The notes beneath the pieces were generated by a model. That model saw only the letters and a list, made by a program, of their open reading frames with translations. It was not told the DNA's origin and searched no databases. A stretch of 37,611 nucleotides of DNA from a virus: positions 1 to 37,611 of the IMG/VR virus record IMGVR_UViG_3300045417_000507; one strand, written 5' to 3'. Positions 6,005 through 37,611 of the stretch are shown piece by piece; the stretch's first letter is position 1, and each line of letters starts with the position of its first letter. The translations under genes and the position numbers were made by a program.

Positions 6005-6009
6005 GTGTA
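6003..6009 (+). promoter_or_regulatory. AAGTGTA start-proximal motif (candidate late promoter)
   Basis: AAGTGTA followed by nine bases and the ATG at 6019. The same heptamer or a one- to two-base variant precedes seven other probable late genes at the same distance. Confidence 0.55.
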
Positions 6010-6018
6010 AAATAATAT

Positions 6019-6867
6019 ATGCCATGCCCTTTAACATCAGATTTAGAATATCCAGATTACGTTAAGAAAATCCTTAAGGAAATAGAAGTTGGTAACGACC
6101 AGAGATTAAAAGATTGTGCTTGTAAACTTAAAACCGTGGTTGATGAAGAGGGATGTCCTATACTTGATGAAGATAATAAGCTAGGCTTGTTTCCGTTTTG
6201 CATAACAGACACAGAAACTGATCCAACTACAATGGGTCTTTCTCTTGGTCACCCATGGCTAAATTATCCTTATGCAGTAGGATTAAGTTTAGATGATATG
6301 ATGCATTTATTTTGGAGAGTAATTGGTTATAGCGAACCTAAATCTTCTTGCACTGTTATTATTCCTCCGGACGATTATGACCCTGGAAGTACAAATACTT
6401 TCTCATCGTGTGGAAGTTCTATACCGCTTAATAAAGCAAGTTCAGATGTAAAAGAAAGAGTATGTAATGCACATATTGGTTTTTCTTTTAATCGCAAAGC
6501 AAATGATGACGATATTTTGTATGGTAATGCTAGTCCTGGATGTACAATAAATAATCATGAAGATATAGCATTTTTTCAATCGAGTAATTACTATAAGACT
6601 TGCTATAGATATAATGACCTTTATTACCCAACAATACAATACACATGTATGGCTCCCCCGCCAGCTATATTCTCTACAACACAACGAGCTGGTGGTCCTG
6701 CTACAACCTTAAAATTAAAAATAAATACTACTAATTATAGTGTTCAAGTTTGGTATCCGCTTGCGAACCTAAATCATGATGCAATTATTAACGCTAATTT
6801 AGAATTAACTTCTGAAATTATACTCGGCGGGGGCGCGGGAGGCGGCATTTCTCAGATGATAGGATAG
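6019..6867 (+). CDS. Variable paralog family, copy 1 (MPCPL family)
   Basis: A 282-residue protein of a five-member family that I cannot assign. Residues 1-37 (MPCPLTSDLEYPDYVKK...DCACKL) are shared almost base for base with three other copies. Then come an acidic stretch (VVDEEGC...DEDNK), FPFC at 58-61 and the conserved CYRYNDLYYP near residue 195. Cysteines are frequent (C3, C33, C35, C46, C61). Between conserved blocks lie variable loops. Residues about 211-230 (MAPPPAIF...AGGPATT) and the tail GGGAGGG are encoded by GC-rich DNA quite unlike the AT-rich surroundings. The nearest relative is the partial copy at 37023. It is preceded by the late-type AAGTGTA motif. Likely a virion surface or adhesin-like protein, by inference only. 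Confidence 0.8.
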   Translation: MPCPLTSDLEYPDYVKKILKEIEVGNDQRLKDCACKLKTVVDEEGCPILDEDNKLGLFPFCITDTETDPTTMGLSLGHPWLNYPYAVGLSLDDMMHLFWRVIGYSEPKSSCTVIIPPDDYDPGSTNTFSSCGSSIPLNKASSDVKERVCNAHIGFSFNRKANDDDILYGNASPGCTINNHEDIAFFQSSNYYKTCYRYNDLYYPTIQYTCMAPPPAIFSTTQRAGGPATTLKLKINTTNYSVQVWYPLANLNHDAIINANLELTSEIILGGGAGGGISQMIG

Positions 6868-6894
6868 TATTTAAGGATCACGTCAATAATAAAT

Positions 6895-6923
6895 TTGACA
6901 AAAAAATAAAAAAATAATAAGAT
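6895..6923 (+). promoter_or_regulatory. Sigma-70-like promoter reading into a structured gap
   Basis: TTGACA (6895-6900), 17 bases, TAAGAT (6918-6923). The predicted start near 6930 leads into the hairpin-rich stretch 6930-7180 and not directly into a reading frame. Confidence 0.6.
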
Positions 6924-6929
6924 ATACTT

Positions 6930-7180
6930 GACATAGCTTCCAATTAGAGCAGTTTGTTGATGTCAAATAATCAACTATCAATCCCTGAGATAGCAATGTC
7001 ATAAGGGCTGACAACTATTAAAACCTTCATCTGTACATAATATGGCTAGTGAAGGGAATGTAGCTATAGGCATCGCAGAATGTAGTGATCGAAGCTACCT
7101 CTGATCCATAAGTGCGATGGCCCGTTTATCGTTGAAATCACGATAAATTTGGAGTCAAAAGAAAAGTTGGATTGATAATA
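6930..7180 (+). ncRNA. Candidate structured non-coding RNA, unrecognised family
   Basis: No convincing reading frame fills the 415 bases between the two variable genes. By hand the stretch folds into many perfect stems: GTTGAT/ATCAAC, CTATC/GATAG with CCCT in its loop, TGTCA/TGACA with AGGG in its loop (able to kiss CCCT), CCTTCA/TGAAGG, GGCATCGCA/TGCGATGGCC (one bulge) and TTTATCGT/ACGATAAA. GTAGCT/AGCTAC interlocks with the GGCATCGCA stem as a possible pseudoknot. It has its own promoter. It does not show the group I intron core, RNase P, 6S, tmRNA or riboswitch signatures I know. It could be a leader of copy 2 or a separate RNA. Confidence 0.55.
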
Positions 7181-7264
7181 CTTAACTTCAGATATATAAA
7201 ATCTGGAGGTAAAGCCCTTTTGGATATCAAAGAAAAGTTAAATAATTTAGATTTTACTAAATGC

Positions 7265-7282: not shown

Positions 7283-8107
7283 ATGCCATGCCCTTTAACA
7301 TCAGATTTAGAATATCCAGATTACGTTAAGAAAATCCTTAAGGAAATAGAAGCTGGTAACGACCAGAGATTAAAAGATTGTGCTTGTAAACTTAAAACCG
7401 TGGTTGATGAAGAGGGTTGCTCTTGCACTGATGAGGATGGTAAAATTGCTGTTTTTCCATTTTGTTGGCAAATTGGCGCGCCTCCTACTACATGGACTCA
7501 ATTACCGAGACTAACAGCTAAACAAGCTATGAGCCTTTATTGGAAAAGCAGTAGTATATCACCAATAAACTTGACATATTATAGTAACTCTTTTGGTGGT
7601 TGTCCACCTGAGACACAATTTACTTTAACACCAAATGGAAATCAAAAATTAGAAAAAAGAAAATTTTCTACTGAATTAACTCCAAATTCAAAAAGAAAGG
7701 AATTTGTATGTCCACATTATGTCAGTTTTGTTCAAGATTTTATATGGACAAGTTGTGACGGTATTGCTTCAGATATGACACTCGAAGTAATAAAATTTTT
7801 CGCTGGAGATAATTATGTGAATAAAGAGAATGGAATATGTTACTTTTATCCTTCAATATTTACTGACATAGGATTTTATACCTCAATATTAAGTACGGAA
7901 AGATGCGGTTGGGGAGAACCGTGTTGCGGTTGGGGACAACCGTGTAGTCCAGATGAAGGAATTTCTGTAAAAATCAAAATCGGTCAAAATTCTGAACCTG
8001 CAATAACTGAACCTGAAATTGTAATAACTGAATTTGATTATGATGAGTTTAATACGCCAGATGGTTTTAGCTTTAATAATACGACTATAACTATTAATGA
8101 ATCATAA
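7283..8107 (+). CDS. Variable paralog family, copy 2
   Basis: A 274-residue member starting MPCPLTSDLEYPDYVKK. The ATG at 7283 is chosen because it aligns with the other copies; the frame extends 37 codons further upstream without resemblance to anything. Its first 136 bases match copy 1 except for one base (Val24 to Ala). After FPFC the sequence diverges almost completely. The loop at residues about 208-221 reads CGWGEPC then CGWGQPC and is encoded by a 21-base tandem duplication. A GC-rich patch and many cysteines are again present. The downstream nucleotidyltransferase-like gene overlaps its stop by 11 bases, so the two are made together. Confidence 0.8.
   Translation: MPCPLTSDLEYPDYVKKILKEIEAGNDQRLKDCACKLKTVVDEEGCSCTDEDGKIAVFPFCWQIGAPPTTWTQLPRLTAKQAMSLYWKSSSISPINLTYYSNSFGGCPPETQFTLTPNGNQKLEKRKFSTELTPNSKRKEFVCPHYVSFVQDFIWTSCDGIASDMTLEVIKFFAGDNYVNKENGICYFYPSIFTDIGFYTSILSTERCGWGEPCCGWGQPCSPDEGISVKIKIGQNSEPAITEPEIVITEFDYDEFNTPDGFSFNNTTITINES
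7904..7945 (+). repeat. 21-base tandem duplication inside variable loop
   Basis: Two adjacent 21-base units, each beginning TGCGGTTGGGGA and ending CAACCGTGT or GAACCGTGT, differ at one base. They encode CGWGEPC and CGWGQPC and form a GC-rich island in copy 2 of the variable family. Confidence 0.85.
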
Positions 8108-8558
8108 TTTTATAATTGACTCAATTATAGAAAATAATGGAATTATTCTTGGATCATACGTAAGAGAATGGATAGGAAATGGAAATCCAACTAATTATGG
8201 TTGGAAAGATATTGATATAAAATGTCCACCATCTAATATATATAAAATTAAAGAAAGTATTCAACAAAAATACCCTAATATAAGACTTGACTTTACGCCG
8301 TCTTTTATACCTAAGAATTCTGCAGTTAAGTATCTATATACTTGTAAATTTTTTAAATATGATGGACGATTTAAAATTTTAGATGATTTAGTTTCTGACG
8401 GTACAAATACATCTGAGTGGTTAGAATTCACGAAAGATAAGATCTATTACGCATTTTTAAATGATAATGAATTTTATAAAAGAGATTCCTATCAAGAATT
8501 AAAACTAAACTCCTACGGATGGAAATTTGCTGGACTAAATAAATTTTTAAAAAATTAA
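8097..8558 (+). CDS. Small nucleotidyltransferase-like protein, copy 1
   Basis: A 153-residue protein. G19-S20-Y-V-R-E followed by D38-I-D40-I and a later strand RLD65F resembles the Pol-beta superfamily signature hG[GS]...Dh[DE]h plus third acid, and the GG-x-VRD...DxD head of tRNA nucleotidyltransferases. The spacing (17 residues) is longer than usual. The paralog at 22398-22871 keeps G19, S20, D38, D40 and D65 at identical positions. No RNA-binding domain follows, so it is a minimal transferase or an inactive relative. It overlaps variable copy 2, and the other paralog also adjoins a variable copy, suggesting a shared process. The superfamily call is mine from motifs alone. Confidence 0.6.
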   Translation: MNHNFIIDSIIENNGIILGSYVREWIGNGNPTNYGWKDIDIKCPPSNIYKIKESIQQKYPNIRLDFTPSFIPKNSAVKYLYTCKFFKYDGRFKILDDLVSDGTNTSEWLEFTKDKIYYAFLNDNEFYKRDSYQELKLNSYGWKFAGLNKFLKN

Positions 8559-13203: not shown

Positions 13204-13554
13204 TTAGTCAGTGTAACTTTTTGGGTGTACCTTCCCTTTGCGTTTTTTTGACCAATCTTTAAAATACTTTTCTTTAACAGCGTCTTTACCATAAATCTTT
13301 TTTCTTTTCTCAGAAAGTTCCTTACTTCTATCCCAAAGATCACCCATGCTCCCTTTTTTATTCTTTGTAAATTCTGAAAATTCTCTAGAAGAACAATCTG
13401 CCTTCAATGTTCCTTGAGTGTTTATTTCTGGAACAGAAAAAACTCTTTTCCACTCAATGCCATTCTGGTCAATATATATATGGTGATCGTGAATAGATTG
13501 AATTATATCTATCGTCTCTTCTGTTTTTGGATGGATATATGTATATAATGGCAT
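13204..13554 (-). CDS. FmdB-related phage protein
   Basis: A 116-residue protein. The N-terminus MPLYTYIHPKTEETIDIIQSI resembles the FmdB/CxxC small regulatory family, but the zinc-ribbon cysteines are missing. The second half (KKGSMGDLWDRSKELSEKRK, then KRKGKVHPKS) is a basic helical tail typical of the version carried by many phages. Function unknown. It follows the glycosyltransferase gene, sharing one base with it (stop/start contact at 13554). Confidence 0.7.
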   Translation of the reverse strand: MPLYTYIHPKTEETIDIIQSIHDHHIYIDQNGIEWKRVFSVPEINTQGTLKADCSSREFSEFTKNKKGSMGDLWDRSKELSEKRKKIYGKDAVKEKYFKDWSKKRKGKVHPKSYTD

Positions 13555-14639
13555 TAACTTAAATAAGATAGTATATTATTATATAAGTTTTCAGACGAAA
13601 ATTCTTGCTGAAGTTTTAGTCCATTATTATTAATCTTATTTTTTTCCACTCTTTGGATTGCTAATTCACAAGCAGATATAAAATCATCACCATTAAAATC
13701 ATATATATTACCCTGATTGTAAGGCTGGTTTTTATGAAAAAATATTCCATCATATGCTTCAATTTTAGAATTAGGATCAATAAGAACGCTGTTTTCATTA
13801 TTCGCCCAAGACTTATACCCATGAGCGTTCATTATTACAGCGTGTTTTCCCATGGCGACAGAATGAAACTCTGGAAGCCCCCAGCCTTCTCCGCCACTCA
13901 TACCTATAATAATATTTGCACTATTTAAAAAATCATTATATATTTGATTTTGCGCCATAAAAGGAAGAAAATTAATATTAAAAAAAGATTTTCCTTGAAG
14001 AGCTTGAGATATAATATTATTTTGATCTTCTGGTTTCATGAATGGATTAAAGATAGAGCATTGAAGAGCATATTTTTTATTATTGCCAAATTTATTAGCC
14101 CATAATTGAATTAATTTTAAATGATGCTTTCTTTTTTCTAGCTTGCCAACAAGATTAAATACTATCCTATCATCTGAGAAATAAATTTTATCAGTTTTAC
14201 TAAAGTTATACTTATCAAAAGCTAAAGGTATATATTCTACGTTTTTGCACCCCAAGTTTTTATAGATATCTACAGTTTCTTTTGAAGAAAATAAAACTTT
14301 ATAGTTATTTTTTACGGTATTTAATTCTATTTTTGTTGGTTGATCTAATTCATAAAAACTTAAAAGAATTTGATCATTCGAATAGCTTTCAAATGAGCCA
14401 TTTAGATGCCATAATTTAAATATCTTATCTTTTTTCGAGTGTTTTTCTAGCGAGAGATTGATTGATTTTTGTAACCAATCAGCAAACTCCTGAGTTATAT
14501 TTGTCTGAGTCGATAAATCTAGATTACCAATTGGAACTAGATTTATGTCTTTTTTATGAGTGAATAATTCTCTACAAATTAGAGTTGAAATTTGTCCAAA
14601 ACTTACCGTGTTTATGGGCAAATTAAAACCTAGACTCAT
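13554..14639 (-). CDS. GT-B glycosyltransferase (GT4-like)
   Basis: A 361-residue GT-B enzyme. The C-terminal donor-binding domain shows IVFNLVGKLEKRKHHLKLI (strand plus basic helix), then GMSGGEGWGLPEFHSVAMGKHAVIM, the E-x7-E-type nucleotide-sugar motif of GT4. The N-terminal half begins with an FNLPINTVSFGQIS glycine-poor loop. It probably transfers a sugar to a phage or host glycan or to DNA; the acceptor is unknown. Its ATG overlaps the SSB-like gene stop by four bases. It lies far from the main glycosylation cassette. Confidence 0.82.
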   Translation of the reverse strand: MSLGFNLPINTVSFGQISTLICRELFTHKKDINLVPIGNLDLSTQTNITQEFADWLQKSINLSLEKHSKKDKIFKLWHLNGSFESYSNDQILLSFYELDQPTKIELNTVKNNYKVLFSSKETVDIYKNLGCKNVEYIPLAFDKYNFSKTDKIYFSDDRIVFNLVGKLEKRKHHLKLIQLWANKFGNNKKYALQCSIFNPFMKPEDQNNIISQALQGKSFFNINFLPFMAQNQIYNDFLNSANIIIGMSGGEGWGLPEFHSVAMGKHAVIMNAHGYKSWANNENSVLIDPNSKIEAYDGIFFHKNQPYNQGNIYDFNGDDFISACELAIQRVEKNKINNNGLKLQQEFSSENLYNNILSYLS

Positions 14640-15592: not shown

Positions 15593-16191
15593 ATTTTTTT
15601 ATTTTCTATATATTTTTCATATATGTTTCTTAAATGCTTTTGCATCAATTCATAAAGAAAGTTTACATCTTGACAAGTTTCCCAACTTACTGAATAGTCA
15701 GCGACAGCTTTTAATTTATTATCATTAGATTTTTCTTCTATATTAGCCGGTTGCACAAGTGCACCATCATCTAGTCTTCTAGATATATGAATTAGAATAC
15801 CATTATGACTTTTAAGCCAAGAATATTCATCGTCTTTGTATTCGATATACCTAATATCTGTGACAATAGGGATAATATTTTCTTTTTTTAATTCTTTGAG
15901 TTTAGAATCAACAAGAGAAGTCCAGTATTTCCCTTCTGTTTGAATTCTTCGGCATTTTCCATAGGATACCATCAGGGGCCTTACCAGCTCTTTATCTGCC
16001 CCGTCACATTTGTTTAAATTTATTTTGAATTTTTTTTCTACAAAATCGCCAAGCTCATTTTTCAATTCGTCAGCTAAAGCTATTCTTTGAGATTCTATAT
16101 TCTTTTCTTTTAAATATTTTTTTAATATAGAATAAAAAGTATCTTTACCAGATCTTGCTACACCAGTCAATCCTATGACATTATTTCCCAT
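15589..16191 (-). CDS. Deoxynucleoside monophosphate kinase
   Basis: A 200-residue P-loop kinase. The N-terminus GLTGVARSGKDTFY (about 7-20) has the GxxxxGKDT loop typical of phage dNMP kinases (T4 gp1 type). A basic YGKCRRIQ segment and PIVTDIRYIEY (Walker-B-like strand, around residue 115) follow. It would phosphorylate dNMPs, feeding NrdAB and deaminase products into the dNTP pool. It overlaps the exported repeat protein by 11 bases upstream and the sigma gene by four downstream. Confidence 0.85.
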   Translation of the reverse strand: MGNNVIGLTGVARSGKDTFYSILKKYLKEKNIESQRIALADELKNELGDFVEKKFKINLNKCDGADKELVRPLMVSYGKCRRIQTEGKYWTSLVDSKLKELKKENIIPIVTDIRYIEYKDDEYSWLKSHNGILIHISRRLDDGALVQPANIEEKSNDNKLKAVADYSVSWETCQDVNFLYELMQKHLRNIYEKYIENKKI

Positions 16192-16654
16192 AACTTATAT
16201 CTCCTTCTCCATTATAGCTAGGAAGAGCTTGTTTATATTTAATTTCATATGTTATTTTTGTGTTTAAAGAAGTTCTTGCCGTGTTAGTTTTATTAAATAT
16301 CTGTTTTGATTCAAACGGCTTAGTAAAAATCGTACTACTAGATTCGTTAGTAGATAAATTTTTTGTTTTATAAGTTTCACAAACTTTATCATTAATTATG
16401 ATATATTTAGGAAATGGTTTAGAGAATATTGTGCCGCTAGATTCATTTGTATTAAAAGATCTGGTTTTATAAGTTTCGTAAACTTCTATCCCTCTGTGAG
16501 TTTTGACATAATTATATTCTTGAAATGGTTTTGGGAAAATTGTTCCATGAGATTCATCATCAGATAAAGATCTAGTTTTGTAGGTGTCGTATACTTTACC
16601 GCTCTGAGCAAAACAATTACAAGATATAAAAGTTATTAATAATAAATATTTCAT
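16181..16654 (-). CDS. Exported protein with three tandem repeats
   Basis: A 157-residue protein with a signal peptide (MKYLLLITFISCNCFA, probable cut after Ala16; a lipoprotein site at Cys12 is less likely). Three 24-residue repeats lie at about 21-44, 58-81 and 91-114, each following (V)(Y/C)(D/E)TYKT...ES.(G/S)TIF.KPF. A short polar tail follows. I do not know the family. It is embedded between dCMP deaminase and dNMP kinase with overlapping ends. An exported repeat protein in a nucleotide operon suggests action in the periplasm or at the cell surface, possibly superinfection exclusion (speculative). Confidence 0.75.
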   Translation of the reverse strand: MKYLLLITFISCNCFAQSGKVYDTYKTRSLSDDESHGTIFPKPFQEYNYVKTHRGIEVYETYKTRSFNTNESSGTIFSKPFPKYIIINDKVCETYKTKNLSTNESSSTIFTKPFESKQIFNKTNTARTSLNTKITYEIKYKQALPSYNGEGDISYGK

Positions 16655-20567: not shown

Positions 20568-21473
20568 TTAAGAGGTATAATTTGTAGTTGTTATTTTAAT
20601 AGAAGTATGTTTTGAAAAAATAAACTGTGCTTCACCCCCATCCCAATTAACAGTTTTTGTTTTGGTTGGACTAGTATATGCATTAATTTTCATATCTTTA
20701 ATACTACCGTAATCAGTTTCAATTTCCTCATATTTGATGCACTCCGAAGCGATTTGAAATACACAATCCCAGTAACCCTCTGTTGTAAAACAATCAGCAC
20801 CAGTATCATATTCGCTCCATCGGTCGACGCCGACAGTGCCCTCGCCCTCCCCTAACCTGTTCTGAAAATAATACTGAATAAATGGTCTTCTTATATAAAA
20901 TTTATAATTTTGTCCAGATCCTATCTGTACTAATCGACTCAAATTATCACTGAAATACAACCTAATGTTTGCTGCAGCCCTTTCATAATGATAAGAACCT
21001 GCGGGAGGTGGTGGCCCCTCTAATATTTCGGTTATACCAAATGAATCGCCCCATTTGAAATTTTTATCTTCATCGCACACGAGTTTTTTTTGCTCTACAT
21101 CTCTAGTAAGTTCGACCGGTTGTATTTTTACTCCGTTAAAATCTATTTTTATGGTTTTTACTTGCCAATATAATTGCATGAGATGACTTAATTTTATTTC
21201 CTGCGCAACCGCTTTGAATTCTATAGTTGCATTTGGATCTCGCAAACATGAGACTTCTGGTACTTCATCTAGATTTTCATAAGTATCAATACAAATTGGA
21301 AAGACTGGCACCTTATCATTTTCATCAAGAATTAAGCATCCTTCATCTGTTATTGGGCTTTGAAGTTTACAAGCACAATCTTTTAATCTCTGGTCGTTAC
21401 CAACTTCTATTTCCTTAAGGATTTTCTTAACGTAATCTGGATATTCTAAATCTGATGTTAAAGGGCATGGCAT
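20568..21473 (-). CDS. Variable paralog family, copy 3
   Basis: A 301-residue member on the opposite strand to copies 1 and 2. The first 111 bases (37 residues) are identical to copy 1, after which it diverges: LQSPITDEGC replaces LKTVVDEEGC, and only FPIC and the following helix align. It lacks CYRYNDLYYP, so it is the most distant in the body. Loops at about residues 152-165 (EGPPPPAG) and 214-232 (RLGEGEGTVGVDRW) are encoded by GC-rich stretches near 20999-21020 and 20821-20855. The motif TTGTGTA lies nine bases upstream. Confidence 0.8.
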   Translation of the reverse strand: MPCPLTSDLEYPDYVKKILKEIEVGNDQRLKDCACKLQSPITDEGCLILDENDKVPVFPICIDTYENLDEVPEVSCLRDPNATIEFKAVAQEIKLSHLMQLYWQVKTIKIDFNGVKIQPVELTRDVEQKKLVCDEDKNFKWGDSFGITEILEGPPPPAGSYHYERAAANIRLYFSDNLSRLVQIGSGQNYKFYIRRPFIQYYFQNRLGEGEGTVGVDRWSEYDTGADCFTTEGYWDCVFQIASECIKYEEIETDYGSIKDMKINAYTSPTKTKTVNWDGGEAQFIFSKHTSIKITTTNYTS

Positions 21474-21578: not shown

Positions 21579-22394
21579 TTACTCAACAAAAGATTGTGGG
21601 TCCGCTACCGTGATTGTTGCAGAGGCTATAGAGCACTCGTTAGGAGTATCCTCCCATCGGAGCCGATATAAGGGTATAGAATAAGAAGGGGAGTTTTTAC
21701 TTATTGTAAAATTAAAGTTAGTAAAATATTCAACCCTCCCCCCGCCCTCCACTCCTCCAGGGCCAACTTCGCTTATCAAACCGAACATTTCAGCATAAAT
21801 CGCAGGATAATAAAGATCGTTATATCTATAACAACTTACGTAAGGAGGACTCGCTGTTAATCCAAAGAAGCTAAATCCAGCGATTGAACAGGGTGGCACA
21901 TTACGATAATCATCTAAATAAGTATTTGTTCGAAGCGACGTGTGTAGTGCGTAACCTATATCCAAACAAACCCTCTCTTTTGGAATAGGAGAAGAATAAA
22001 TATTTTGTTTGCATATCTTCCCGTTTATCTTTTCGCAATAGCTCGGACCCGGCGCTAATTGAAATTCTCCCTTAATTGTTCCCCATTGTTTGAAATTCCA
22101 ATAGAATTGACTTAAATCTCTAAGGCTAAATCCAACTTTATACAACTTATAGCGATAAGGATCCCATGATTCAAAACCGATCTCTATAGGATCTTGCTCT
22201 GTGTCTACTATGCAAAACGGAAACAAGCCTAGCTTATTATCTTCATCAAGTATAGGACATCCCTCTTCATCAACCACGGTTTTAAGTTTACAAGCACAAT
22301 CTTTTAATCTCTGGTCGTTACCAGCTTCTATTTCCTTAAGGATTTTCTTAACGTAATCTGGATATTCTAAATCTGATGTTAAAGGGCATGGCAT
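21579..22394 (-). CDS. Variable paralog family, copy 4
   Basis: A 271-residue member closest to copy 1: the first 62 residues match apart from Val24 to Ala, and ERVC...IG and CYRYNDLYYPAI are shared further on. Between them the sequence and length differ freely. The loop SEVGPGGVEGGGRVEY (about residue 212-227) is encoded by a G-rich run at about 21733-21765; another GC-rich stretch at 22047-22062 encodes LAPGPS. It starts three bases after the second nucleotidyltransferase-like gene in the same operon. Confidence 0.8.
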   Translation of the reverse strand: MPCPLTSDLEYPDYVKKILKEIEAGNDQRLKDCACKLKTVVDEEGCPILDEDNKLGLFPFCIVDTEQDPIEIGFESWDPYRYKLYKVGFSLRDLSQFYWNFKQWGTIKGEFQLAPGPSYCEKINGKICKQNIYSSPIPKERVCLDIGYALHTSLRTNTYLDDYRNVPPCSIAGFSFFGLTASPPYVSCYRYNDLYYPAIYAEMFGLISEVGPGGVEGGGRVEYFTNFNFTISKNSPSYSIPLYRLRWEDTPNECSIASATITVADPQSFVE

Positions 22395-22397
22395 AAA

Positions 22398-22871
22398 TTA
22401 AAATTTCATTAAATATTCATTATTTGGATTAAAGACTTGTCTATCCAAAGTTAGAATATTCCATCCCTTCTTCTCTTTTAGATATTTTTCAAAATTAATA
22501 TCTTTTTTGCCATAAACATTGCCTAAGATACAATTTTTATTTTTTACATCTTCTAGCCATTCATTAGTATGTTTAAAAAAAGGATATACAACTTTAAAAA
22601 AACCATCATATTCAAATAAATTAACAGAATATGCACTCATTCCTTGGGTGGCACCTATAATATAATTAATTCTAAAATCCAATTTAACGCTAGGATCAAT
22701 TTGATTTATTTTTTTAGTAATAATAATTTCTTGCTCTTTTGAACATTTGATATCAATATCTCGCCATCCAACATCAGATGGAGAACCTTGTATTAACCAA
22801 GCGCCAATATAACTACCAGCAATTTTTCCATTATTTTCTAATATTGTTTTTATTATTAAGTCATGATTCAT
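22398..22871 (-). CDS. Small nucleotidyltransferase-like protein, copy 2
   Basis: A 157-residue paralog of the 8097-8558 protein. It shares MNH, ENNG, G19-S20-Y, W25, G35-W36-(R/K)-D38-I-D40-I-K-C and KLD65F at the same positions. The Arg of the VRE motif is replaced (IGAW), so activity may differ between the copies. The C-terminal halves are only loosely alike (FEYDG, then a Trp-containing segment). It precedes variable copy 4 with a three-base gap. Pol-beta superfamily membership is inferred from motifs. Confidence 0.6.
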   Translation of the reverse strand: MNHDLIIKTILENNGKIAGSYIGAWLIQGSPSDVGWRDIDIKCSKEQEIIITKKINQIDPSVKLDFRINYIIGATQGMSAYSVNLFEYDGFFKVVYPFFKHTNEWLEDVKNKNCILGNVYGKKDINFEKYLKEKKGWNILTLDRQVFNPNNEYLMKF

Positions 22872-23652: not shown

Positions 23653-26013
23653 ATGAGTAACCTACCATGCCCTACTCTGCCAACGTTAAGTGTAAGTAGC
23701 ATCGCTAGTGCTGATAATCAAAATTGTGAAGGAGGGAATCTTAAAGAAGACGTTTCGTGTAGCGAAGTACTAATAAAATTTGGAGAAGTAGAAGTAACTC
23801 AAAAAATAGAAATGAAAGTTCAATATTTTTCTTCTATGGGTCCGCCAAAGTTGGGCACATCAGCTTCTGGCTCGCCATCATATAAGTTTAAATTTGATGA
23901 TCCCAAATATCTTGCAGGAACTCTCGTGCAACTTCATGACTATTTTGCAAGCAACAAAATTGTAGGCGATCCAGAAATTACTACCGTAAACGCAAGCTAT
24001 AAAAGAGACGGAACTCAAGGAAAAACAAAACTATTTAAAAAAACCCCTTGGGAATATTTTGGATCCACCGCTAACGCAGCCAGAAGCGAGAATTGGGATT
24101 TTGGAAATACAGACTACAATAGAATAGCTGGCCCCAAATGGGAGGAGGAGCCTATTAACGATTTTTTTTATAATCCAAATGATCTTGTTTTTGAATCAGA
24201 TGGCTTAAGACAAGCTTATCTTTATGAAGCAAGCGAATTAGTTAAAAAACTAAAAAAGAAAGAACAAAGTTTTAAAGATTATTTTAATTCACAAGCAATA
24301 AAATTCGTGGATTATACAAACGAAATGAGACTGTTATGGGCCTTAGCAGCATTGGGGCAATTGCCATTTGATAGCATATCTAAAAAATTTAGAATAGGCA
24401 ACAGCACAAACCCTGGATATACTAGAGATATAAAAATAGTATTTAATCTTTATGTTAAAGCCATGAGAGCAGAAATGTCCTCAGTATGTGGTACAACACT
24501 AACAGAAGTAAAGCTTAACGGCGTAGAAGCTTCAAAAAGTCTTAAACGCCCCAAGAAAACTTGTCTAAAATGCCTTATAGTTCTTAATAATCAAGACACA
24601 GAAATCAATAGAGACGGAGTATACTTTTTTGGAGTTGCTTGGAACAAGGGCAATCCAAAGCAAACATTTTTAGAAAGAGTAAGGGAAGCAGAACCAGCAC
24701 ATGGAATAGGATCAAAAAAAGCAGATTCAAAAAATATAGCCACGTTTTATAGTGACGCATATGTTCTTGGAAATAGATTTGGTCCATCAGAGTTTCAGCC
24801 TGGAGACAAATTAAAACAAAAAAGCCTTTATCCAGATATAATAGTTTTTGAAGACGATTTAAATCCGTGGGGCAGGCATGCAGTAACCAGAGTTGAACTT
24901 CTTAAATTTCTAGCACATGAAAGACAAGGAGCTTATACCTGGGAACTAGCAGAAGGATCGGGCGCAAACCCAAATCACTGGGCACCGCTAGATAAAAAGT
25001 TTTGGACACAAAACAATCAATCCCGCCCAATTATGATAGCCAGACCACATGTAAAACAAAGAGGGGATGGCGGAACAGAAATTATTCCAGGCCTTAAGCT
25101 TTATTTTACAGCAGGACAAAATATCACAAGTGGCGATATTCAAGGATCTTCAGTTCAAATGCAAGTAGTCTTTCCGCTTGAAGCATTTGCGGTCCTCGGA
25201 GAAGGGCCATTAACATTAGAATCTTTACCAGGGAAATTTATGAATTTCTTTTCAGCAGCAATTTTTGTAGTTAAAATTGATGTTGTTCAGGGCGTAAAAG
25301 ATACTTATGCAATAGTAAATTGGTGGGAAAAAATGGAAGCAGCCAAAGAAGCACTGAGAAAAATGAAAGAGTACGTTGAGTCATTAAAAGCAAAAGTGCA
25401 GGCTCATACAGACGAATTAACAAAAGCTTTTGAAGCTAGAGACCTAAATAAATATAATGAAGTTTTAAATAGCCTTAGAGCACTTGCTGCGGATTTTCAG
25501 CAAAAAACAGGCCACTCGATAGATCTCACAGTGGCCATACAGGGCGGCAAGAACCTACAAATGTTTATTGATGCTCAAAATCAACTACAAAATGAAATAA
25601 ATTCTCAACTCCCAGATTCATCTCGTGTACCTGAAGCGCCAAATCCACCTCAAGACGAGGCACAGCCAGAAAATCCACCAGTTGTAAGTCCAGAGCAAGT
25701 ACTAGATAGTTCTTCTACTGGCAACGCGACCGATGCTCTTGTTATTCCAATCCCGCTTTCAGATCCAATTGGAACAAATCCGCCAGCCGCCCCCTCTACA
25801 CCCCAACCAATAGATCCAATAGTATTTTTTCAACCAATTGATACTCCTTCATTAGGATCAACTCATAATCTAGGCGTTATTGGTCATCCAGAACAATCAG
25901 GACCAGGTTTTGTTAGTGACGGCACTGCTTTTGAACAAATTCCTGGAATTGATCTAGGAGAGTATGTTCCACCTATTCAGCTTCCCTCATGGTACTTGGA
26001 AGGAGACTTTTAA
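23653..26013 (+). CDS. Large probable virion protein
   Basis: A 786-residue protein with no recognised catalytic motif. It starts MSNLPCPTLPTLSV. Residues about 30-550 look globular with mixed strands and repeated Gly/Asn loops; about 560-640 is a charged coiled coil (KMEAAKEALRKMKEYVESLKAK...). From about 650 a Pro/Ser-rich linker follows, then the C-terminal end LPSWYLEGDF. GC content is higher than in the neighbours. A tail, baseplate or fibre component is the likeliest role by size, layout and the late-type motif upstream. The adjacent 29-residue protein shares the WYxEGD end. Confidence 0.7.
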   Translation: MSNLPCPTLPTLSVSSIASADNQNCEGGNLKEDVSCSEVLIKFGEVEVTQKIEMKVQYFSSMGPPKLGTSASGSPSYKFKFDDPKYLAGTLVQLHDYFASNKIVGDPEITTVNASYKRDGTQGKTKLFKKTPWEYFGSTANAARSENWDFGNTDYNRIAGPKWEEEPINDFFYNPNDLVFESDGLRQAYLYEASELVKKLKKKEQSFKDYFNSQAIKFVDYTNEMRLLWALAALGQLPFDSISKKFRIGNSTNPGYTRDIKIVFNLYVKAMRAEMSSVCGTTLTEVKLNGVEASKSLKRPKKTCLKCLIVLNNQDTEINRDGVYFFGVAWNKGNPKQTFLERVREAEPAHGIGSKKADSKNIATFYSDAYVLGNRFGPSEFQPGDKLKQKSLYPDIIVFEDDLNPWGRHAVTRVELLKFLAHERQGAYTWELAEGSGANPNHWAPLDKKFWTQNNQSRPIMIARPHVKQRGDGGTEIIPGLKLYFTAGQNITSGDIQGSSVQMQVVFPLEAFAVLGEGPLTLESLPGKFMNFFSAAIFVVKIDVVQGVKDTYAIVNWWEKMEAAKEALRKMKEYVESLKAKVQAHTDELTKAFEARDLNKYNEVLNSLRALAADFQQKTGHSIDLTVAIQGGKNLQMFIDAQNQLQNEINSQLPDSSRVPEAPNPPQDEAQPENPPVVSPEQVLDSSSTGNATDALVIPIPLSDPIGTNPPAAPSTPQPIDPIVFFQPIDTPSLGSTHNLGVIGHPEQSGPGFVSDGTAFEQIPGIDLGEYVPPIQLPSWYLEGDF

Positions 26014-37015: not shown

Positions 37016-37022
37016 TTTTCAT

Positions 37023-37611
37023 TCAAATCCCGCGATCGTAACCGTTAAATTTGGCTTCTAAATTAGCGTTAATAATTGGATTATGTCCACCTAGGTTCGC
37101 AAGCGGATGCCAAACTGGAACACTATAATTAGTAGTATTTATTTTTAATCTTAAGATTGCTTGGGCGGGATGACTCGCTCGTGGGTATGTATCGAATCCT
37201 GCCTCATCCCCTCGCTGTGGCGAGGGAGCAAGACATATGTATCGCATTGCTGGGTAATAAAGGTCATTATATCTATAGCAAGTCTCATAGTAATCACTCG
37301 GTTCAAAAAATACTATATCTTCATAATTATTTATTGTACATCCATCTTCCCCCGCTCCCATAAAAGAAAAACCAATATGTGCATTACATACTCTTTCTTT
37401 TACATCTGAACTTGCTTCATTAAGCGGTATAGAACTTCCACACGATGAGAAAGTATTTGTACTTCCAGGGTCATAATCGTCGTACGGAGGAATAATAACA
37501 GTGCAAGAAGATTTAGGTTCGCTATAACCAATTACTCTCCAAAATAAATGCATCATATCATCTAAACTTAATCCTACTGCATAAGGATAATTTAGCCATG
37601 GGTGACCAAGA
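37023..37611 (-). CDS. Variable paralog family, copy 5 (partial, runs off right edge)
   Basis: The open frame continues past the window end (HPWLNYPYAVGLSLDDMMHLFW), so the N-terminus is not seen. It is the closest relative of copy 1: long blocks are base-identical (for instance around GSTNTFSSCGSSIPLN, and KINTTNYSV), with point changes nearby. Three segments are replaced outright: NRKAND...SPG by MGAGEDG; PPPAIF... by SPQRGDEAGFDTYPRASHPAQ; and the C-terminus. One codon (Tyr) is inserted at PPYDD. The replaced loop at 37155-37240 is very GC-rich and contains CCCTCGC/GCGAGGG and GGGATGA/TCATCCC inverted repeats. Confidence 0.8.
   Translation of the reverse strand, partial: LGHPWLNYPYAVGLSLDDMMHLFWRVIGYSEPKSSCTVIIPPYDDYDPGSTNTFSSCGSSIPLNEASSDVKERVCNAHIGFSFMGAGEDGCTINNYEDIVFFEPSDYYETCYRYNDLYYPAMRYICLAPSPQRGDEAGFDTYPRASHPAQAILRLKINTTNYSVPVWHPLANLGGHNPIINANLEAKFNGYDRGI

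Follow-up and report, generated by a model that had tools for sequence, protein, structure and literature searches.

GC-rich loop islands in a multicopy gene family of an uncultivated, AT-rich phage

Retroelements, inversions, and mosaic exchange are known means by which phages vary the proteins that contact their hosts. In Neisseria pilE/pilS and Borrelia vlsE, variation arises by cassette gene conversion with silent partial cassettes. Diversity-generating retroelements join a constant gene part to a hypervariable C-terminal part, and the variation changes amino acids. The gp38 adhesins of T2-type phages (S16, PP01) have a constant scaffold, hypervariable host-contact loops, and glycine-rich motifs, and they vary between strains (PMC12892980). 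In the literature on hypervariable phage loops, we found nothing on the insertion of GC-rich loops.

Here we describe a gene family that resembles each of these systems in part. It lies in IMG/VR record IMGVR_UViG_3300045417_000507, an uncultivated phage contig of 37,611 bases with 29.7% GC; this whole stretch was analyzed and is referred to as the window. The window contains at least five copies of the family (c1 to c5; Table 1), which together make up 10.6% of the contig. As in gp38, a constant part is combined with variable, Gly-rich loops. Unlike gp38, the family is present five or more times per genome, its copies share a near-identical 5' block, and it is coupled to a gene for a nucleotidyltransferase-like protein (NT). 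Also unlike gp38-type adhesins, c1 to c4 matched no Pfam families and no PHROG families (0 and 0), although the two may be distantly related. As for the polyglycine sandwich of gp38, the rear part of the family protein is poorly predicted (AF2 model, pLDDT 61), and the predicted fold gave no PDB match and no usable structural match. The protein probably faces the host, although neither a fold nor a family match supports its exposure at the surface or its contact with the host. The multiple copies, the conserved blocks around variable ones, and the homogenized 5' ends are reminiscent of pilE/pilS and vlsE. However, every complete copy of this family is a whole gene that has its own start, and donor loops were not found. 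Like diversity-generating retroelements, the family pairs a constant part with a hypervariable rear, and its variation changes amino acids.

We favor, with a probability of roughly 0.55, the view that a multicopy phage protein is under diversifying selection and that the GC-rich islands are segments of its loops that were exchanged recently.

Table 1. Positions in the window of the family copies, their GC-rich segments, and associated features
Feature	Position	Strand	Remarks
Copy c1	6019..6867	+	ORF, 282 aa; homologous to c2-c5
Near-identical 5' block of c1	6005..6215	+	common to c2, c3, c4, and contigs G001 and G002
c1 variable loop	6651..6702	+	GC 0.58, normal GC3
GC island, c1 tail (ILGGGAGGGI)	6820..6849	+	>=80% GC cluster 6820-6849; GC 0.88 at 6824-6847
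28-nt patch, c1 3' end	6847..6874	+	spans the stop codon, directly after the GC island
Copy c2	7283..8107	+	274 aa counted from the conserved MPCPLT start
c2 loop	7905..7944	+	GC 0.65; arose by tandem duplication (12-nt exact direct repeat)
NT next to c2	8097..8558	+	within 8 nt of the c2 stop
Source of the patch	14155..14182	-	inside glycosyltransferase gene 13554-14639
Copy c3	20568..21473	-	301 aa
GC island, c3 loop (RLGEGEGTVGVDRWSE)	20807..20865	-	GC3 z 5.9 in 20 codons; >=80% GC cluster 20828-20847
Second GC island, c3 (EGPPPPAG)	20998..21020	-	>=80% GC cluster, earlier loop of c3
Copy c4	21579..22394	-	271 aa; GC3 excess across the entire variable body (z 5.7)
GC island, c4 loop (VGPGGVEGGGRV)	21725..21778	-	>=80% GC cluster 21731-21758
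Second NT	22398..22871	-	6 nt upstream of the c4 start
Fifth >=80% GC cluster, outside the family	25780-25799		in 786-aa gene 23653-26013
c5 insertion edge	37016..37022	.	empty site in contig G002
Copy c5	37023..37611	-	truncated by the contig end, 195 aa visible; 83% nt identical to c1
GC-rich part, c5 loop (APSPQRGDEAG)	37193..37232	-	5 residues longer than the c1 loop

The family and its turnover between strains

Homologues in 12 related contigs keep the conserved start (YPxYLK...GNDxxLKxCACxLK...EGCxIxDEDGK...FPFC) and have a variable rear; one relative, G003, has seven copies. In the four copies with a visible start, the shared 5' block begins about 4 to 25 nt upstream of the start codon, and the sequences diverge downstream. 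The block is 87 to 100% identical over 105 to 203 nt, and at least 98% identical across the first 105 to 120 nt or so. Its mean identity is 0.87 among the copies in the window, versus 0.63 between genomes. In G005, a pair of copies has 0.96 identity across this block, versus at most 0.83 to other non-identical genomes.

In two contigs from other samples (L123:1 and L122:1), the assembly terminates within the conserved 5' block of one of the family's copies; the window, too, is cut off within c5. Because assemblies break at the repeated gene, copy numbers are underestimated.

At a site next to a DnaB gene, a whole family copy is present in one strain and absent from another. Contig G002 is about 99.97% identical to the window from position 22297 to about 36000 and 84% identical from there to 37015; past the equivalent of 37015, it passes directly into DnaB, without c5. 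In G001, the start of a family copy adjoins the same DnaB gene. As the empty site lies within the 84%-identical stretch, insertion of c5 and its loss look alike. The drop in identity between 36000 and 37015 is likely a border of homologous recombination between strains.

Copies c1 and c5 do not differ evenly along their length: they have long, nearly identical blocks in common, and the loops were exchanged en bloc, with a change in length, between nearly identical flanks. In the clean blocks, 15 codon changes are nonsynonymous and 0 are synonymous (P = 0.006). The island sequences preserve the reading frame.

GC-rich islands and synonymous codon use

A sequence-only reading of the window had proposed that GC-rich islands sit in the variable loops of an AT-rich genome. 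This was borne out: five clusters of 20-nt segments with at least 80% GC were observed, versus 0.19 expected under a first-order Markov model, and four of the five are inside the family (P about 6e-4). The blocks adjoining the islands are AT-rich (GC 0.33-0.37), as had also been claimed. Among the seven sites that were flagged, four are strongly GC-rich, namely, the c1 tail, 20821-20855 (0.71), 20999-21020 (0.77), and 21733-21765 (0.76). However, three are only moderately so: 22047-22062 (0.56), 37155-37240 (0.57), and the c1 loop (0.58). The GC-rich loop of c2 had been missed. In c3, c4, and c5, islands occupy the loop that joins a YYP strand to an xVKI strand; the corresponding loops of c1 and c2 have milder GC. 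The cluster outside the family encodes the Pro/Ala-rich end of a 786-aa protein, whose start (MSNLPCPT) somewhat resembles that of the family.

In nine related genomes, 1 of 13 such clusters is inside the family, so the pattern is for the most part peculiar to this virus. Because relatives with the same family carry few GC-rich loops, the islands are close to virus-specific. In G003, six GC islands outside the family are clustered within a 10-kb stretch (83949-93656).

We considered whether the islands might result from ordinary selection on amino acids, as loops that are flexible and rich in Gly, Pro, and Ala require G or C at the first two codon positions. The YYP-xVKI loops were picked by protein motif, blind to composition, and the expected number of GC-ending codons (GC3) was computed from the amino acids and from codon usage elsewhere in the window. 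The loops in the window contained 61 GC-ending codons versus 33.5 expected (1.8 times; z = 5.9), and nine homologous loops of related phages contained 31 versus 50.9 expected (0.6 times). Per copy, z was 4.6 for c3, 3.7 for c4, 3.3 for c5, 0.5 for c2, and 0.4 for c1. With the c1 tail included, c3 and c4 show a strong excess, and c5 and the c1 tail show a moderate one; the c1 and c2 loops show none. When we scanned 20-codon segments, c3 reached z = 5.9; among 41 control genes, the same scan gave 5.45 for the 786-aa gene and no more than 4.2 for any other.

Selection on amino acids accounts fully for the c1 loop (5 GC-ending codons versus 4.4 expected) and the c2 loop (9 versus 8.0); as their GC3 is normal, the GC of these two loops comes from their Gly/Pro/Ala content. 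The relatives are also consistent with it: their loops have segments that are GC rich at positions 1 and 2 with normal GC3, and their other genes also hold GC-rich islands, several of which are simple Gly- or Pro-type repeats. However, the GC3 excess given the amino acids in the c3, c4, and c5 loops and in the c1 tail refutes amino-acid selection as the full account, and the z of 5.9 came from loops selected independently of composition. Amino-acid choice does not fully explain the islands, and we think it rather unlikely to be the main explanation. The earlier claim that the islands go beyond ordinary codon use stands for c3, c4, c5, and the c1 tail but not for the c1 and c2 loops.

The sequence-only reading had also confined the enrichment to loops and a tail. 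This does not hold for c4, whose variable body as a whole contains 67 GC-ending codons versus 37.6 expected, and which fits import of the body rather than of a loop. Entire cassettes might have been imported from a GC-richer phage, and the presence/absence polymorphism of family copies is consistent with this. But in c1, c3, and c5, the GC3 excess is only local, the 5' blocks are near-identical to those of resident copies, and no donor was found in IMG/VR or in phage records. We consider import of entire cassettes to be unlikely.

Source of the loops and a traced insertion

No loop donor was found in the window and the related contigs, although these contigs are mostly fragments and the genome is incomplete. 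Two 23-mers from the islands were absent from 84,980 bacterial and archaeal genomes, IMG/VR contained no relatives of the c2-c4 bodies, and the c3 island had only chance-level matches to phage records. The failure to find donors in these collections agrees with the sequence-only reading, which had suggested two causes, slippage and non-templated addition. Slippage is not a general cause, as an excess of internal direct repeats is found in c2 only, and slippage or tandem duplication accounts for that loop alone. Non-templated addition may have contributed, but the sole traceable insert, 28 nt at the 3' end of c1, is templated.

This patch is 100% identical to the reverse complement of its source, with a match of 51 bits; none of 45 control stretches exceeded 33 bits. 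Within the glycosyltransferase gene, the stretch encodes FSDDRIVFNL, a peptide that 15 relatives conserve, whereas c1 reads it in another frame; we therefore take the glycosyltransferase to be the source. We rejected the possibility of an assembly chimera, as one erroneous join could not produce a patch that is unlike the donor on either side. No comparable patch was seen in the window's other family copies, and the family copies of nine related genomes had no patch above the control level save one 22-nt match. Matches of 24 to 28 nt occasionally occur between other genes of the relatives, so ectopic copying extends beyond the family.

If the islands are recently exchanged segments, then the shared 5' block would allow the copies to recombine and be homogenized, while short illegitimate insertions, partly templated like the one that we traced, would swap the loops. 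Selection would retain variants whose Gly/Pro/Ala-rich loops change the contact with the host surface. The high GC3 may mark DNA whose source was richer in GC or unbiased and which is still to be ameliorated to AT-rich codon use. Several results count against this view: the searches found no source for any GC-rich loop; there is one templated patch only among the copies tested; relatives with the family carry few GC-rich loops; insertion of c5 looks the same as its loss; no fold or family match supports host contact; and in GC3, c5 and the c1 tail stand out moderately and the c1 and c2 loops not at all. The pattern suggests that the protein is being varied actively. Homogenized starts, GC-rich loops that are replaced en bloc and are not ameliorated, and a coupled NT gene would together amount to a separate route of protein diversification.

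A nucleotidyltransferase-like partner and the genome setting

In most cases, NT starts 2 to 18 nt past the stop of a family copy or overlaps it. Among records with the family, NT turned up in 8 of 13, versus 0 of 12 among those without it (P = 0.0016). It contains the motifs G[SG]YVRE, DIDI (DxD), and LDF, and G19, D38, D40, and D65 are invariant in nine members; thus, it has the GG/GS, the DxD, and the third acidic residue of Pol-beta superfamily nucleotidyltransferases. The heads of CCA-adding enzymes and poly(A) polymerases likewise have GG/GS-x-V-R, DxD, and a third Asp. There was a weak nucleotidyltransferase match in PHROG and no match in Pfam. Residues 1-150 of the predicted structure (pLDDT 76) align best to the heads of CCA-adding enzymes, and the top 25 alignments from VIA-align are all to CCA-adding, tRNA-processing, or bacterial 3aqk-type enzymes, with Z from 4.1 to 5.7, where Z under 8 may mean a common fold only. 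The best E value from Foldseek was 0.09. Unlike CCA-adding enzymes, NT is only about 150 aa and lacks the tRNA-binding part. Together, these results make it likely that NT has a nucleotidyltransferase fold but do not extend to its activity.

Given this resemblance, the loops might have grown by non-templated, G/C-biased addition at breaks, possibly by NT. That would be compatible with the close coupling of NT to family stops, with the failure to find donors for the GC-rich loops, and with a coding strand that is G-rich and lacks internal repeat structure except in c2. However, CCA-type enzymes act on RNA, which speaks against addition to DNA by NT. Furthermore, the GC-rich loops are mostly missing from the relatives that have NT, the sole traced patch is templated, and neither Ku nor a PolX palm domain was found in 13 records, mostly fragments. 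Non-templated addition in any form seems improbable to us. Because relatives with NT do not have loops with raised GC3, a role for NT in generating loops is speculative. One specific proposal is a long shot: NT would work without a template and extend broken ends in the loops of its partner genes with G/C-rich stretches. If true, this would be the phage equivalent of N-addition during the assembly of antibody genes.

A diversity-generating retroelement that targets the variable region by adenine-directed mutagenic retrohoming is very unlikely: the purely nonsynonymous changes between c1 and c5 would suit it, but the family shows block replacement with insertions and deletions that change loop length, no template repeat was found, and no reverse transcriptase (RVT_1 domain) was found in the window or in 16 related records (17 in total, mostly fragments).

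Among 50,697 phage records, there was no near match to the first 25 kb of the window. The window encodes a tmRNA, adenylosuccinate synthetase, an IMP-dehydrogenase-like gene, a UvsX-like recombinase, and many glycosyltransferase-like genes. Contig G001, which encodes DnaB and a DnaE-like polymerase, appears to extend this genome, and we infer that G001 and the window are the two sides of c5 in one genome. G001 also has genes that resemble a lambda-type tail-tip module. An ORF at 16181-16654 contains three 74-nt direct repeats (16313-16596) that are 68 to 73% alike.

Finally, the intergenic region between c1 and c2 (6891-7251) has no match in Rfam. At least eight related contigs conserve it, at 88 to 91% nucleotide identity. 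It folds into a closed multi-branched structure in which 18 pairs are preserved by two-sided changes. The region is a candidate for a new phage RNA.
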